From Urmitella timonensis (GTDB lineage Bacteria > Actinomycetota > Actinomycetes > Actinomycetales > Actinomycetaceae), in the NCBI GenBank assembly GCA_900120415.1, contig FQLW01000006.1, forward strand, positions 124,001-188,000: a stretch of 64,000 nt of DNA, in the 5' to 3' direction. The notes below the pieces were generated by a model, which had not been told where the DNA came from, searched no databases, and worked only from the letters and a program-made list of their open reading frames with translations. This document shows positions 10,348 to 40,345 of the stretch, piece after piece. The translations under genes were made by a program, and so were the position numbers. Each line of letters opens with the position of its first letter. The first letter of the stretch is position 1.

Positions 10348-11673
10348 TTAAACGCCCAAAGCTTGAATTGGAAATGTAAAGGTAGGAACGTCATTTTCCA
10401 GCTTCGTGAGCTTAGCTATCGGTCCAGCCAGAGTAACTACTGCCAGGAACGAAGGTTTCTTCATCACCTCTAAATCGAGCGTATTCACGATTTCTTGCAG
10501 TTTTTGCCCTGCTTGAGAGATTTTGGCGGTTCCTAGTTTGACTTCGATACCTGCCCAGCGCCCATCAGGAAGAGTAACAATTCCATCGATTTCCCGACCG
10601 GAGCTATCGCGGTAGTGATAGAGCCTACCTCCTAAAAAGCTAATCAGGGTATGTAGATCATGGAGAACGGCGCTTTCTAATATCAAGCCGAGAGTTTTCG
10701 GGTCATAGGCTAGCTGAGTAGGCGTAGTTCCCAGAAGATTAACCGCCATAGCTGGATCAGCTAGATGATATTTACTGGCCGTACGCAGCCTTGCTCTCGT
10801 ACGTAGCTGCGGCAACCAGGCAGGAATCTCTTGAACTACAAAAATCCTCCCTAGTAGTTCCAGATAGTTAGAAATGGTTCTATTTTGGATTTCTGCTGCT
10901 AGTCGCATGATGTCGCGGCGAATCGTGTCTATCGTTAACTCACTAATCACGCTGCGCGCTACCGACTGTAGGACTGCCTTGATCACTTGCGGAGAATGCC
11001 GAATCTCGGCGAGGCGAGACAAATCTAGGCGGGTTACCTCATCAATATATGCACTGATACGGCGGGAAGAAAGCGAAAAGTCATCATAGAGCATATCGGG
11101 GAATCCCGGGCGGCATAGCAGATTGATTGCCGAGGTGGGGTCATCTTGACCAGGGAAAAGGTCAGGGAATTCCCCCGCAAATAAGTTGCGTAGGGATATA
11201 GATGGCATTGAGCTACCCTTGCCCAGAACTTGGTCTTTTTCACAGGTAGTCATGGTTTGCTGGGTAAGACGCAAGAAGCGTCCCGCCCCAGTATGTCTGG
11301 TAATGTCATCAGCTGGGAGGGCGGATCCGGTCAAAATGAAACGTCCGCGCTCCGCCCTGCCGTCTACCTCGCGGCGAACTAGATTCCAGCTTTCGGGGAT
11401 AACCTGCCATTCATCTAACAGTCGGGGGGTATCACCACGAAGAAGTAATTCAGGTTGAAAATCAAAGATTTCTTTTGCGTGGGGAGTATCTAAAAAGATA
11501 TAAGAGTTAGCCGCATTTAGGGCGCTCATAGTTTTTCCGCACCCACGAGGACCCTCGATTATAACGGCGCCTACCCCGTGCAGGATTTCTTGCAAGGCGC
11601 TATCAATCATTCGGGGTAGATAGGGTCTACCCACTATTGCTTCGGTATCCACATGCTTATTATAGCAGTTCAA
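10348..11673 (-). CDS. AAA ATPase with DUF4143 domain
   Basis: This 441-aa protein is of the AAA_14/DUF4143 type. Walker A is GPRGCGKT (residues 41-48), Walker B is RLLDEWQ (D87 E88), sensor region FILTGSA. The C-terminal half contains GREIDGIV and GIEVKLG, a D-E-K pattern of the PD-(D/E)XK nuclease fold. The family is widespread, patchily distributed and of uncertain function; membership in defence or toxin-antitoxin-like modules has been suggested, not shown here. The gene stands alone and is flanked by 23-bp repeat arrays in inverted orientation, which suggests a mobile or exchangeable cassette. Confidence 0.88.
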   Translation of the reverse strand: MNCYNKHVDTEAIVGRPYLPRMIDSALQEILHGVGAVIIEGPRGCGKTMSALNAANSYIFLDTPHAKEIFDFQPELLLRGDTPRLLDEWQVIPESWNLVRREVDGRAERGRFILTGSALPADDITRHTGAGRFLRLTQQTMTTCEKDQVLGKGSSMPSISLRNLFAGEFPDLFPGQDDPTSAINLLCRPGFPDMLYDDFSLSSRRISAYIDEVTRLDLSRLAEIRHSPQVIKAVLQSVARSVISELTIDTIRRDIMRLAAEIQNRTISNYLELLGRIFVVQEIPAWLPQLRTRARLRTASKYHLADPAMAVNLLGTTPTQLAYDPKTLGLILESAVLHDLHTLISFLGGRLYHYRDSSGREIDGIVTLPDGRWAGIEVKLGTAKISQAGQKLQEIVNTLDLEVMKKPSFLAVVTLAGPIAKLTKLENDVPTFTFPIQALGV

Positions 11674-14627: not shown

Positions 14628-15668
14628 CTACGGTAACCAACGTCCCGCATATTGAGCTGAGGGCTGCGGTTCCTTAGTTGATTCCCGAGGGATAAACGCG
14701 GCCTCTCCAGCTATCAGACAATCTCCTGGTTTAGGGGTATAGGACGCACCAAAAATCTGTTTCATCAGCACCGTCACCCCCAGGTTAGCGAGTTTATCGA
14801 CCGGCTGGTCAATCACGGTAATCGCCGGAGATATTACCGAAAACCAGGGAACATCATCGATGGCTACCAGTCCCAAATCTGCTCCCAAGTGTATTCCCAA
14901 ACTTTTCGCAATCATCAACACCCCTAGAGCTATCTGGTTAGAAGCGCAGATAATAATATCTGGACGGTATAGCGACAGAATACAGCGAGCGGCACTAGCT
15001 GCCGACACTGCCTCGTGTAGACAATACTCAATCTCTAAATGGCTAAACCCGCTGCGGGCTAATTTTTCTTGCAGCTTTTCAGCTCGTCTTTTACCCGCGA
15101 TACAAAACTCTGGACCTGCCAGATAGGCAGGACGTCTATATCCTAAGGAGCACAAATGCTCAGCCATGTCTTGCATAGCATTGGCAGAATCAATCACTAT
15201 CGAGGGTATCGCTGCTCCCGGTGCTTCACGGTCTAAAGCCACCATGGGTAAACCATCGGGGGCCTCGGGATGTATCCACCCGGGAGCTATCCGTGATGGG
15301 GGTACTACTAACAGTCCATCCACCCCTTGTTTTGCCAACGCCCTAATCCCGTTTTCATAGCTTTTTTCATCTTCATGGGCGTTAGACAGCAGCAGCGAAG
15401 TGGCATGGGAATGGACGGCTCGTTCTACACAGTGAGCCAGCATCGCATAAAACGGGTTCATTATATCCCCAACTACCAGCCCAATCGTTCCGCTACGACC
15501 AGTACGCATAGCTGCCGCTAAGCGATCTTTTTGATACCCTAGCTCTTCGGCTGCGGCTAGGACTTTACGTTGGGTCTGTCCGCTCAGATGGGTACTGCCG
15601 TTGAGGGCGCGCGATACGGTAGCAATCGAAACCCCAGCGGCTTTTGCCACGTCACGGATGGTTGCCAT
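14628..15668 (-). CDS. LacI-family transcriptional regulator
   Basis: This 346-aa repressor has an N-terminal HTH (TIRDVAKAAGVSIATVSRALNG, with hinge helix to follow) and a periplasmic-binding-protein-like effector domain (GTIGLVVGDIMNPFYAML). The start at 15668 is chosen because AGGAGG lies 10 nt upstream and the family starts M-x-TI-x-DVA; an upstream ATG at 15716 would add 16 unrelated residues. The effector cannot be read from sequence. It is not followed by sugar genes; leuA lies downstream on the same strand, with only the leader region between. Two palindromic operators sit upstream, so it probably represses itself. Confidence 0.92.
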   Translation of the reverse strand: MATIRDVAKAAGVSIATVSRALNGSTHLSGQTQRKVLAAAEELGYQKDRLAAAMRTGRSGTIGLVVGDIMNPFYAMLAHCVERAVHSHATSLLLSNAHEDEKSYENGIRALAKQGVDGLLVVPPSRIAPGWIHPEAPDGLPMVALDREAPGAAIPSIVIDSANAMQDMAEHLCSLGYRRPAYLAGPEFCIAGKRRAEKLQEKLARSGFSHLEIEYCLHEAVSAASAARCILSLYRPDIIICASNQIALGVLMIAKSLGIHLGADLGLVAIDDVPWFSVISPAITVIDQPVDKLANLGVTVLMKQIFGASYTPKPGDCLIAGEAAFIPRESTKEPQPSAQYAGRWLP

Positions 15669-37832: not shown

Positions 37833-38585
37833 TTACGCTTTGTGACGGCGCCAGGCAACTACACCAGTACCGCCGGCAACGGAGGCTACTGCTAGTCCAG
37901 CTAGAGAAGCAGCAACCGCACCGGTGCTAGCCAGGTTTCCTTTGCTCTGCTTAGCCGGTTTAGCGACTGGCTTATTTGCAGATTTCTTGGTGTCGGCGAC
38001 AGCAACCGCAGTCCCTTTTTCGGATTTACCGGGCTTTACCTGAGGTTTCGCGGGTTTCTCTGCCGGTTTGGAGGGGGTAGCTTTGCAGCCGTGAGCCTTG
38101 TTATAGGCGGCAGGATCAGCGTCCTGAATCTTCTTTAGAGCCGGATAGACATAGTTTTTAACAGTGCCTTCCTGAATATCAGAGTATCCTTTCGCTTCCT
38201 TGTATTTCGCAGTGGCACTCTTCAAAGTGGCAGCTGCTTTAGTTAAATCGGCGTTAGCATCATCGAGAGCTTTCTTCTTAGTAGCATCTCCTTCGGGAGC
38301 AGCTTGGGTCTTGCTCTCGTCGAAAGCTTTCTTAGCGGCAGCAACCTTAGCTTTAGCGGCTTTTACATCAGCTTCGGCTTTTTTCATAGCATCATCAGCC
38401 TGGTTGGTTGTCAGCTGCAGTTCAGTGAGCTTACCGTTTTCATTGGCATAGTGAATCTCTGCCTGTTCGAGAGCATCTACCCAGCAAGCGGGGGTTGTGT
38501 CAGCTGCGAAGGCAGCCGGGGCGAACCCGAAAGTCAGACCGGCTACGAAAACGCCAGCTGCAGTTTTTTTGACAAGATTTTTCAT
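37833..38585 (-). CDS. Sortase-anchored helical surface protein (LAxTG)
   Basis: This 250-aa secreted wall protein has a signal peptide at residues 1-27 (MKNLVKKTAAGVFVAGLTFG, then APAAFA-A), an all-helical, Lys/Ala-rich coiled-coil region (about 36-165) bracketed by two cysteines (C34, C167) that could form a disulfide, and a Pro/Lys-rich wall-spanning linker. The C-terminal sorting signal is LASTG (218-222), a hydrophobic stretch and RRHKA. No known adhesin family is recognised. The ATG has AGGAG 7 nt upstream. The promoter has a perfect TTGACA followed by a run of nine G, which suggests phase-variable expression. Confidence 0.88.
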   Translation of the reverse strand: MKNLVKKTAAGVFVAGLTFGFAPAAFAADTTPACWVDALEQAEIHYANENGKLTELQLTTNQADDAMKKAEADVKAAKAKVAAAKKAFDESKTQAAPEGDATKKKALDDANADLTKAAATLKSATAKYKEAKGYSDIQEGTVKNYVYPALKKIQDADPAAYNKAHGCKATPSKPAEKPAKPQVKPGKSEKGTAVAVADTKKSANKPVAKPAKQSKGNLASTGAVAASLAGLAVASVAGGTGVVAWRRHKA

Positions 38586-38621
38586 TTTAATACTCCTACA
38601 AGTACTTCTGACAGGAACAAT

Positions 38622-38651
38622 GCAAAATTATTACCCCCCCCCGCTTGTCAA
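38622..38651 (-). promoter_or_regulatory. Promoter of the surface protein gene with G9 tract in the spacer
   Basis: On the minus strand: TTGACA (38651-38646), AGC, nine G (38642-38634), then TAATAATTTTG. The gap from TTGACA to TAATAA is 12 bp, and to the shifted hexamer TAATTT it is 15 bp, both shorter than the optimal 16-18. Gain of a few G would bring the boxes to a normal distance. Confidence 0.65.
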
Positions 38652-38728
38652 GCTCAGTTCAAGAAATGAACTTTTTCAGCATCCAGATTTTTTTATTAAT
38701 TCGACTTAAAAGGGCAAAAATAGTATTT

Positions 38729-38780
38729 GTAAAAATAAAAAAAGTGGCTCTGCCAGCAAAAACTTCTGACAGAGCCACTT
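38729..38780 (-). terminator. Intrinsic terminator of gatCAB
   Basis: On the minus strand AAGTGGCTCTGTCAG pairs with CTGGCAGAGCCACTT (15 bp, one wobble; + strand 38742-38756 and 38766-38780) around a 9-nt loop. It is followed by TTTTTTTATTTTT, 69 bp after the gatB stop. Confidence 0.92.
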
Positions 38781-38848
38781 GATAGCACTTGCAGCAACTA
38801 TTAAATATAGAACAAGAGGTAATTAGTCACATTAGTAACATTGTCTGA

Positions 38849-40345
38849 TTAGCCGTTGATTTGCTTGAGGATCATCTCGCGGGTTTCCCCGGCATCTGCC
38901 TGCCCCTTGGTGGCACGCATGACCCCACCCATGAGGGCGCCAATCGCCTTGACTTTCCCGGCTTTTATTTGTTCCACAACTTTCGGATTATCCGCAATTA
39001 CCTGGGCGACTGCCGCTTGCAGCGCGGCCGTATCTCGCACGATTTCCAATCCCCGAGCGTGCATTACCTCTGCGGGAGTGCCTTCACCATCGAGAACCCC
39101 GGCAATCACTTTCCGAGCCACCTTATCGTTAAGTTTGCCCTGGTCTACCAGGTCTTGTAGCTGCGCCACATCGGAGGGAGTAGCCGAAACCTCAGTTAAA
39201 TCCAGATTCTTTTCTTTAGCGATTCGGGAAATCTCCCCCATCCACCATTTACGTGCCGCCTGGGGCGCGGCTCCTGCCGCGACCGTGGCCTCGATAATAT
39301 CCAAAGCGTCCGCATTTACCACGTCCCGCATTTCCATATCAGAAAACCCGTATTCTTTACGTAGTCGGCGGCGCCGGGCTACCGGCAGTTCCGGCAGGTT
39401 AGCGCGCAGCTGTTCCACCCATTCTTTCGCGGGAGCTACCGGCACTAAATCCGGTTCCGGGAAATAGCGGTAATCTTCGGCGTCAGATTTTTCCCGCCCC
39501 GAAGAAGTGGTAGCAGTATCTTCATGCCAGTGACGAGTTTCTTGGATAACTTTGCCACCTTCAGAAAGAATCTTGGCTTGGCGGCGAATCTCAAAAGTAA
39601 CCGTCTTTTCAATGGCTTTAAACGAGTTCACATTCTTAGTTTCAGTGCGGGTTCCCAAGGGCGCATCCGGATTAGCACGCAAAGATACGTTCACATCAGC
39701 GCGCACGTTCCCTCGTTCCATCCGTGCCTCGGAAACCTCCAGAGCTCGGAAAATATCGCGCAAAGTACGCACATAGGCGGCGGCTACCTCGGGAGCGCGA
39801 GCCCCCGCGCCCTCAATAGGGCGAGTAACGATTTCAACTAGAGGAACCCCAGCGCGGTTGTAGTCCACCAGGGAATAAGCAGCCCCTTGAATGCGACCAG
39901 CGTCTCCCCCGATATGGGTGTTCTTACCGGCGTCCTCTTCCATATGGGCGCGTTCAATATTTACCCGGAAGATTTCCCCATCGTCTAGCTCTACATCTAC
40001 ATAGCCATCATGGGCGATAGGTTCATCATATTGGGAAATCTGGTAGGCCTTTGCCAGGTCGGGATAGAAATAATTCTTGCGAGAAAACCGGCAGTAAGGA
40101 GCTATTTCACAATTAAGGGCAAGTCCGATTTTGATTGCATATTCAACTGCGCGCTGGTTGGTTACCGGCAAAGATCCAGGCAATCCCACTGAAACTGGGG
40201 TTACCCGAGTGTTGGGTTCTCCCAGTGAAGAGTTCGGGGCGCTATCAAACATTTTGGTTTCAGTACCCAGCTCGACGTGGACTTCCATGCCCAAGACCGG
40301 ATCGAATTTAGATACCGCATCTTCGTATTTCATTAAATCGCTCAT
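38849..40345 (-). CDS. gatB: Asp-tRNA(Asn)/Glu-tRNA(Gln) amidotransferase subunit B
   Basis: GatB binds the mischarged tRNA and phosphorylates its acyl group before GatA-derived ammonia is added. The 498-aa protein shows [35 protein letters not shown], the zinc-less central part, and the C-terminal YqeY/helical domain ([15 protein letters not shown]). The operon gatC-gatA-gatB has 2- and 10-bp gaps. A strong terminator follows. Confidence 0.97.

Follow-up and report, generated by a model that had tools for sequence, protein, structure and literature searches.

A putative phase-variable promoter of the kind known from meningococcal porA, fetA and opc, in which a homopolymer fills the promoter spacer and acts as a contingency locus, probably drives the gene for a small surface protein in the window (the whole 64-kb stretch of DNA analysed here). 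On the minus strand, TTGACA (38651-38646) is followed by AGC (38645-38643), nine G (38642-38634) and TAATAATTTTGCATTG from 38633. This reading bears out the coordinates and the strand of the initial annotation, which had described a perfect TTGACA, AGC, nine G and an A/T-rich -10 candidate. The arrangement TTGACA-AGC-G9-TAATAATTTTGC lies 48 bp upstream of a gene for a 250-residue protein, and the homopolymer sits between the -35 and the candidate -10 in a conserved A/T block. On the same strand, the intergenic region from gatB to the gene reads ...GAGC TTGACA AGC GGGGGGGGG TAATAATTTTGCATTGTTCCTGTCAGAAGTACTTGT AGGAG TATTAAA ATG. The G9 tract is the sole G/C run of at least 8 in the 64-kb window and has the slip-prone length of about 8 or more; in meningococcus, homopolymers of at least 8 are mostly variable (PMC5084427). 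Anatomy, product class and tract length match the porA/fetA/opc type, the -10 being a candidate. The consensus -35, G-run spacer, sub-optimal spacing, conserved footprint, surface product and many sister tracts all fit phase variation, and the claim of a phase-variable promoter is partly supported and likely.

Table 1. Features of the gatB-surface protein gene interval, in window coordinates
Feature	Position	Strand	Basis or remark
250-aa secreted protein gene	37833..38585	-	signal peptide, helical hairpin, stalk, LASTG sorting signal
Shine-Dalgarno AGGAG	38593..38597	-	direct reading, V. cambriense alignment
Block common with V. cambriense: TTGACAArCGGGGGGGGG(T)AATAATTTTGCATTGTTCCTGTCAG, flanks diverged	38608..38651	-	intergenic alignment
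Alternative -10 TAATTT (TAnnnT), spacer 15 at G9, 17 at G11	38625..38630	-	conserved; inferred
Candidate -10 AATAAT (5/6), spacer 13 at G9, 17 at G13	38627..38632	-	conserved; inferred
G9 tract in promoter spacer, proposed slippage site	38634..38642	-	sequence; also G9 in V. cambriense
-35 element TTGACA, perfect consensus	38646..38651	-	sequence; kept in V. cambriense
Terminator-like hairpin of gatB (AAGTGGCTCTG...CAGAGCCACTTTTTTT), conserved	38738..38780	-	direct reading
gatB, upstream neighbour	38849..40345	-	context

At G9, the spacers counted from TTGACA are 12 bp to TAATAA, 13 bp to AATAAT and 15 bp to TAATTT, in agreement with the sub-optimal 12-15 bp spacer proposed earlier, and a standard promoter scan of 38550-38850 found no sigma-70-like promoter with a 16-18 bp spacer. 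In V. cambriense, the spacers at G9 are 12 bp to AATAAT and 14 bp to TAATTT. Because the spacers to the candidate -10 elements are short (13/15 and 12/14), both assemblies look weak or OFF at G9, as a prediction. Two to four extra G (about G11-G13) would bring the spacer to about 16-18 bp. A sigma-70 score computed with an approximate matrix climbs as the tract lengthens and peaks at G13 in the window and at G14 in V. cambriense. Which A/T element is the -10 is not certain, the candidates having been chosen by sequence.

In the proposed mechanism, the housekeeping sigma factor would direct RNA polymerase to TTGACA plus the A/T block beyond the tract, with G9 filling the spacer. Slipped-strand replication would gain or lose G, and NucS mismatch repair is expected to be blind to such small indels. 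Transcription is predicted to be low or off at G9, since the spacer is 13 or 15 bp, and the gene would be on at about G11-G13, where the spacer would reach about 16-17 bp. Tract-length switching would therefore make one clone a mix of cells with and without the helical-hairpin wall protein. The sequence, the footprint, the genome-wide excess of tracts, the length differences of sister tracts and the set of repair genes are observed; the -10 assignment, the variation of this tract, its effect on transcription and any benefit to the cell are predictions.

In the structure prediction, the 250-aa protein has two antiparallel helices of ~58 residues (35-93 and 98-155) between Cys34 and Cys167, followed by a disordered Lys/Pro stalk and then LASTG, a hydrophobic stretch and RRHKA. 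The hairpin helices have pLDDT values mostly above 90, within a model that is modest as a whole (mean pLDDT 64, from two sequences). The protein matched no Pfam family, and a PDB fold search returned generic helical hairpins only, with no match at E<=0.001. Wall anchoring, as initially proposed, is likely: the LASTG motif, hydrophobic stretch and RRHKA tail speak for it, as do three sortase genes over the Pfam cut-off in the genome, and the NCBIfam LPXTG model speaks against it, with 12.6 bits under a cut-off of 15.9. The product is best described as a small surface protein of the sortase type. An orthologue 82% identical occupies the same place after gatB in V. cambriense, and the gene is missing at this site in the other 4/6 Varibaculum genomes. 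Judged from this distribution the gene is accessory, and few tracts can be compared because these four genomes lack it there. A family-wide protein search retrieved the Varibaculum pair only, plus weak C-terminal matches. A terminator-like hairpin, whose loop is too long for the standard scan, separates gatB from the gene. An 11-bp repeat (CTGTCAGAAGT), found in this hairpin and in the 5' UTR, was dropped as a candidate element; it is absent from the V. cambriense UTR.

The promoter region was compared with that of V. cambriense DFI.7.46, the nearest named relative of the window genome (G000, 2.14 Mb, grouped with Varibaculum), in which the window spans C5:124001-188000. From a conserved stretch close to gatB, which includes the terminator-like hairpin, the intergenic alignment passes through divergence into a near-unbroken conserved block, which begins exactly at TTGACA and finishes at CTGTCAG; beyond it the two sequences differ once more as far as the ribosome-binding site AGGAG. 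The -35, AxC, G9 and AATAATTTTGCATTGTTCCTGTCAG are kept, that is, the -35, the tract and the next 25 bp, and the rest of the intergenic region has diverged on both sides. Two positions differ within the block: AGC/AAC ahead of the tract, and a T after the tract, whose presence or absence shifts the spacer by one and is the sole spacer change between both species. Because the block is kept while its flanks diverged, we read it as a promoter footprint, as selection on a promoter core would leave, and the conservation strengthens the positional claim for the tract. The tract is G9 in both carrier species, two species only, and therefore no length change is seen at the locus.

This constancy bears on a first alternative, to which we give a small but real chance. 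The promoter would be real and its tract effectively fixed, working as a weak constitutive or activator-dependent promoter with a short G-rich spacer that drifts slowly between lineages without any switch. In its favour, activator-dependent promoters can tolerate poor spacers. Tract lengths in C. acnes follow clades, suggesting slow change over rapid switching (PMC4746626). Against a fixed tract stand sister tracts of the same genome and genus, which differ in length between otherwise matching flanks, as well as the tenfold excess of runs of at least 10 G in a background where indel repair is expected to be absent.

The sister tracts include L037:3839-3847 (G9) and L041:4237-4244 (G8), which lie in the window genome within sequences otherwise 100% identical over 308 aligned bp. 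Orthologous tracts also differ between Varibaculum species (G8/G9, G9/G10, G9/G13). A G9/G10 tract in a conserved ORF of ~900 aa (L058/L084/L122) was rejected as evidence of switching because the frame is the same in all three. Likewise, the V. cambriense assembly (G002) has contigs that break off at G runs, but these breaks were rejected as signs of tract heterogeneity, since several contig-end runs are 23-54 G long and look like a sequencing artefact; those of 30-54 G (L056, L119, L120, L121, L123, L127) inflate the tract counts of this assembly.

The 2.14-Mb window genome contains 24 runs of at least 8 and 14 of at least 9, and, from length 7 up to length 12, the exact G-run counts are 39, 10, 4, 6, 3 and 1. 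Ten runs of at least 10 were observed (nine if a single duplicated locus is counted once) versus 0.9 expected by extrapolating the decay from the 7-mer and 8-mer counts (39, 10), P about 4e-8. The excess has P about 5e-4 even under a slower assumed decay of 0.4. A perfect TTGACA lies within 8 nt of 2/24 tracts, the window locus and C5:513875 (C-strand reading), with a chance P of about 0.001-0.005 under a crude model. Descriptively, several long G tracts precede genes for large secreted proteins or lie within them. As for repair, the gene for the MutS N-terminal domain (MutS_I) is absent from 6/6 Varibaculum genomes and NucS is present in 6/6. M. smegmatis NucS leaves 1-2 bp indels unrepaired, which its authors tie to phase variation (PMC11551767). 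By this analogy, small-indel correction is expected to be absent in the Varibaculum lineage.

A further possibility, which we consider improbable, is that the tract exerts its effect apart from, or later than, the spacing read by RNA polymerase: it could bind a protein, form a G-rich structural element, or belong to the 5' UTR of an mRNA initiated further upstream. Past the -10 candidates, the conserved block continues for about 16 bp as far as CTGTCAG, further than a bare promoter requires. Moreover, a G11 tract in the ribosome-binding region of another gene (L053), 13 bp before its start codon, suggests that Varibaculum tracts may act at more than one level. Conversely, the conserved perfect TTGACA three bases ahead of the tract and the terminator-like hairpin upstream together would place the transcript start downstream of the tract, and a search for an Rfam element found none. 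That the G run adjoins TTGACA by mere chance and plays no part in expression is very unlikely: one TTGACA match at 24 tracts would be found in 5-10% of genomes, but the footprint is conserved across species and the arrangement recurs at orthologous promoters in the family.

Several other tracts are of interest in their own right. The tract of L053 (4340-4350; G000:C5:1211339) precedes a gene whose 723-aa LGNTG product contains an atypical Rib domain; this tract could be a translational switch. A large repeat-containing surface gene in L041 (G000:C1:595653, 598817) has G10 tracts at 11654-11663 and 14818-14827: the coding one splits frames of 1035 aa and 1978 aa and the second lies ~93 bp before the start, which may provide double control. 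At L046:4887-4895 (G000:C5:513886), a 9-bp G/C tract between divergent genes lies in a TTGACA-(16 bp)-GAGAAT spacer toward a DUF4190-like gene and, on the other strand, in a TTGATT-(14 bp)-TACTAT spacer toward an ABC-transporter-like gene; the DUF4190-like gene in G001 has C13 (L115). At L066:1502 (G005:C5:269854), an LPVTG helical protein has G11 among its signal-peptide codons, out of frame as assembled; for a similar protein from a different genus (L099), the tract is in the promoter instead. TetR-like regulator orthologues of two Varibaculum species have G12 (L042:4417) and G9 (L055:1501) upstream of or near the start. Finally, G19 directly follows the lipobox region of a solute-binding lipoprotein at L140:2048 (G003:C4:2132246) and would encode a poly-Gly linker if in frame.

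Recurrence of the arrangement was surveyed in 213 genomes of the Actinomycetaceae, a family associated with humans and so far little studied. TTGAC followed by G8 within 8 nt was found in 28 genomes versus about 12 for the reversed pattern, and TTGAC with C8 in 26 versus about 23. The G8 enrichment was rejected as decisive evidence, as TTGAC with C8 gave similar numbers, and the motif count alone is weak because the C8 counts barely differ. The motif alone is thus modestly enriched, and gene context and orthologues give the stronger support. At 17/34 G sites and 9/31 C sites, a ribosome-binding site is present and an ORF follows at 15-130 nt, as judged by simple heuristics, the association with surface genes being descriptive. 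The same arrangement recurs ahead of secreted, lipoprotein and sortase-anchored genes. Actinomyces lipoprotein promoters have tracts of G8, G8, G12 and G8, and an Actinomyces lipoprotein promoter, TTGACA-AGC-G8, has the same first nine bases as the window promoter, plus G8. In a promoter pair of genus g7, the displayed flanks match and the tract is G8 versus G10. Genes sharing an 'FQLAPGE' N-terminus, a family without a Pfam match that occurs in several genera (L112, L184, L094, L095, L160), have spacers of G8, G10, G9, G13 and C9. DUF4190-like genes, including one from the window genome, have C9, C8, C9 and C13, other lipoprotein promoters have C12, C9 and C10, and promoters of LPxTG proteins have G9, G8 and G10. 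A scan of viral contigs for the promoter core gave no match. We regard as evenly balanced the wider proposal that Actinomycetaceae phase-vary secreted, lipoprotein and sortase-anchored proteins through a class of promoter found across the family, with a homopolymer as spacer (TTGACA-N1-6-Gn/Cn-AT block), with the tract itself retained in several unrelated gene families and the switch placed, in related LPxTG families, in the promoter (L099) or in signal-peptide codons (L066).

In meningococcal porA, fetA and opc, a homopolymer between the -10 and the -35 controls expression, in line with the parallel drawn initially with neisserial porA (PMC2791445). The window locus shares with them the homopolymer promoter spacer and the surface-exposed product, as well as graded or on/off expression by spacer length, here predicted. 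Unlike the Neisseria loci, it belongs to a different phylum, encodes a Gram-positive wall protein, has an assembled spacer below the optimum and lies in a NucS rather than a MutS/MutL repair background, and its switching is predicted from sequence. That such promoters are rarely described in actinobacteria, as the initial annotation stated, is fair, although two precedents temper it. The C. acnes tract HPT_37, five or seven C in length, lies between the -10 and the -35 of PPA1943, and C5 and C7 strains differ twofold in expression (PMC4746626). It is likewise an actinobacterial homopolymer in a spacer, but its gene is metabolic and leaderless, its tract is shorter and C rather than G is on the coding strand. 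In B. breve, another actinobacterium whose poly-G tracts are tied to sortase-type surface proteins, poly-G slippage governs sortase-dependent pili, with measured G11/G12 mixtures; the demonstrated switches differ in being translational frameshifts in coding sequence, and promoter-spacer G-tracts are mentioned in passing (PMC9187656). The window genome shares with the slippage loci of both species a genome-wide excess of long G/C tracts, some near surface genes. For H. influenzae hif, as cited from van Ham 1993 in PMC9187656, a change in repeat length between the -35 and -10 controls the fimbrial genes; by that account hif differs from the window locus in its dinucleotide repeat and divergent genes, and the local tract that resembles hif more closely is C9/G9 at L046. 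By these comparisons, the window locus likely works like the known promoter-spacer kind, with actinobacterial precedents in C. acnes and B. breve.

Samples from the human urogenital tract and from abscesses commonly contain Varibaculum and its relatives. A literature search linking them with phase variation or homopolymeric tracts retrieved nothing on point, and next to nothing has been described of how their surfaces vary. With about two dozen long G tracts, several of which lie in promoter spacers, the genome is predicted to yield clonal mixtures of surface types which, if real, would affect serology, typing and adhesion studies. Such a genome could also be used to ask if slippage switches are favoured in bacteria whose NucS repair is blind to indels. 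The wider pattern, homopolymer-spacer promoters repeated across Actinomycetaceae together with indel-blind repair, outweighs the single locus in interest.
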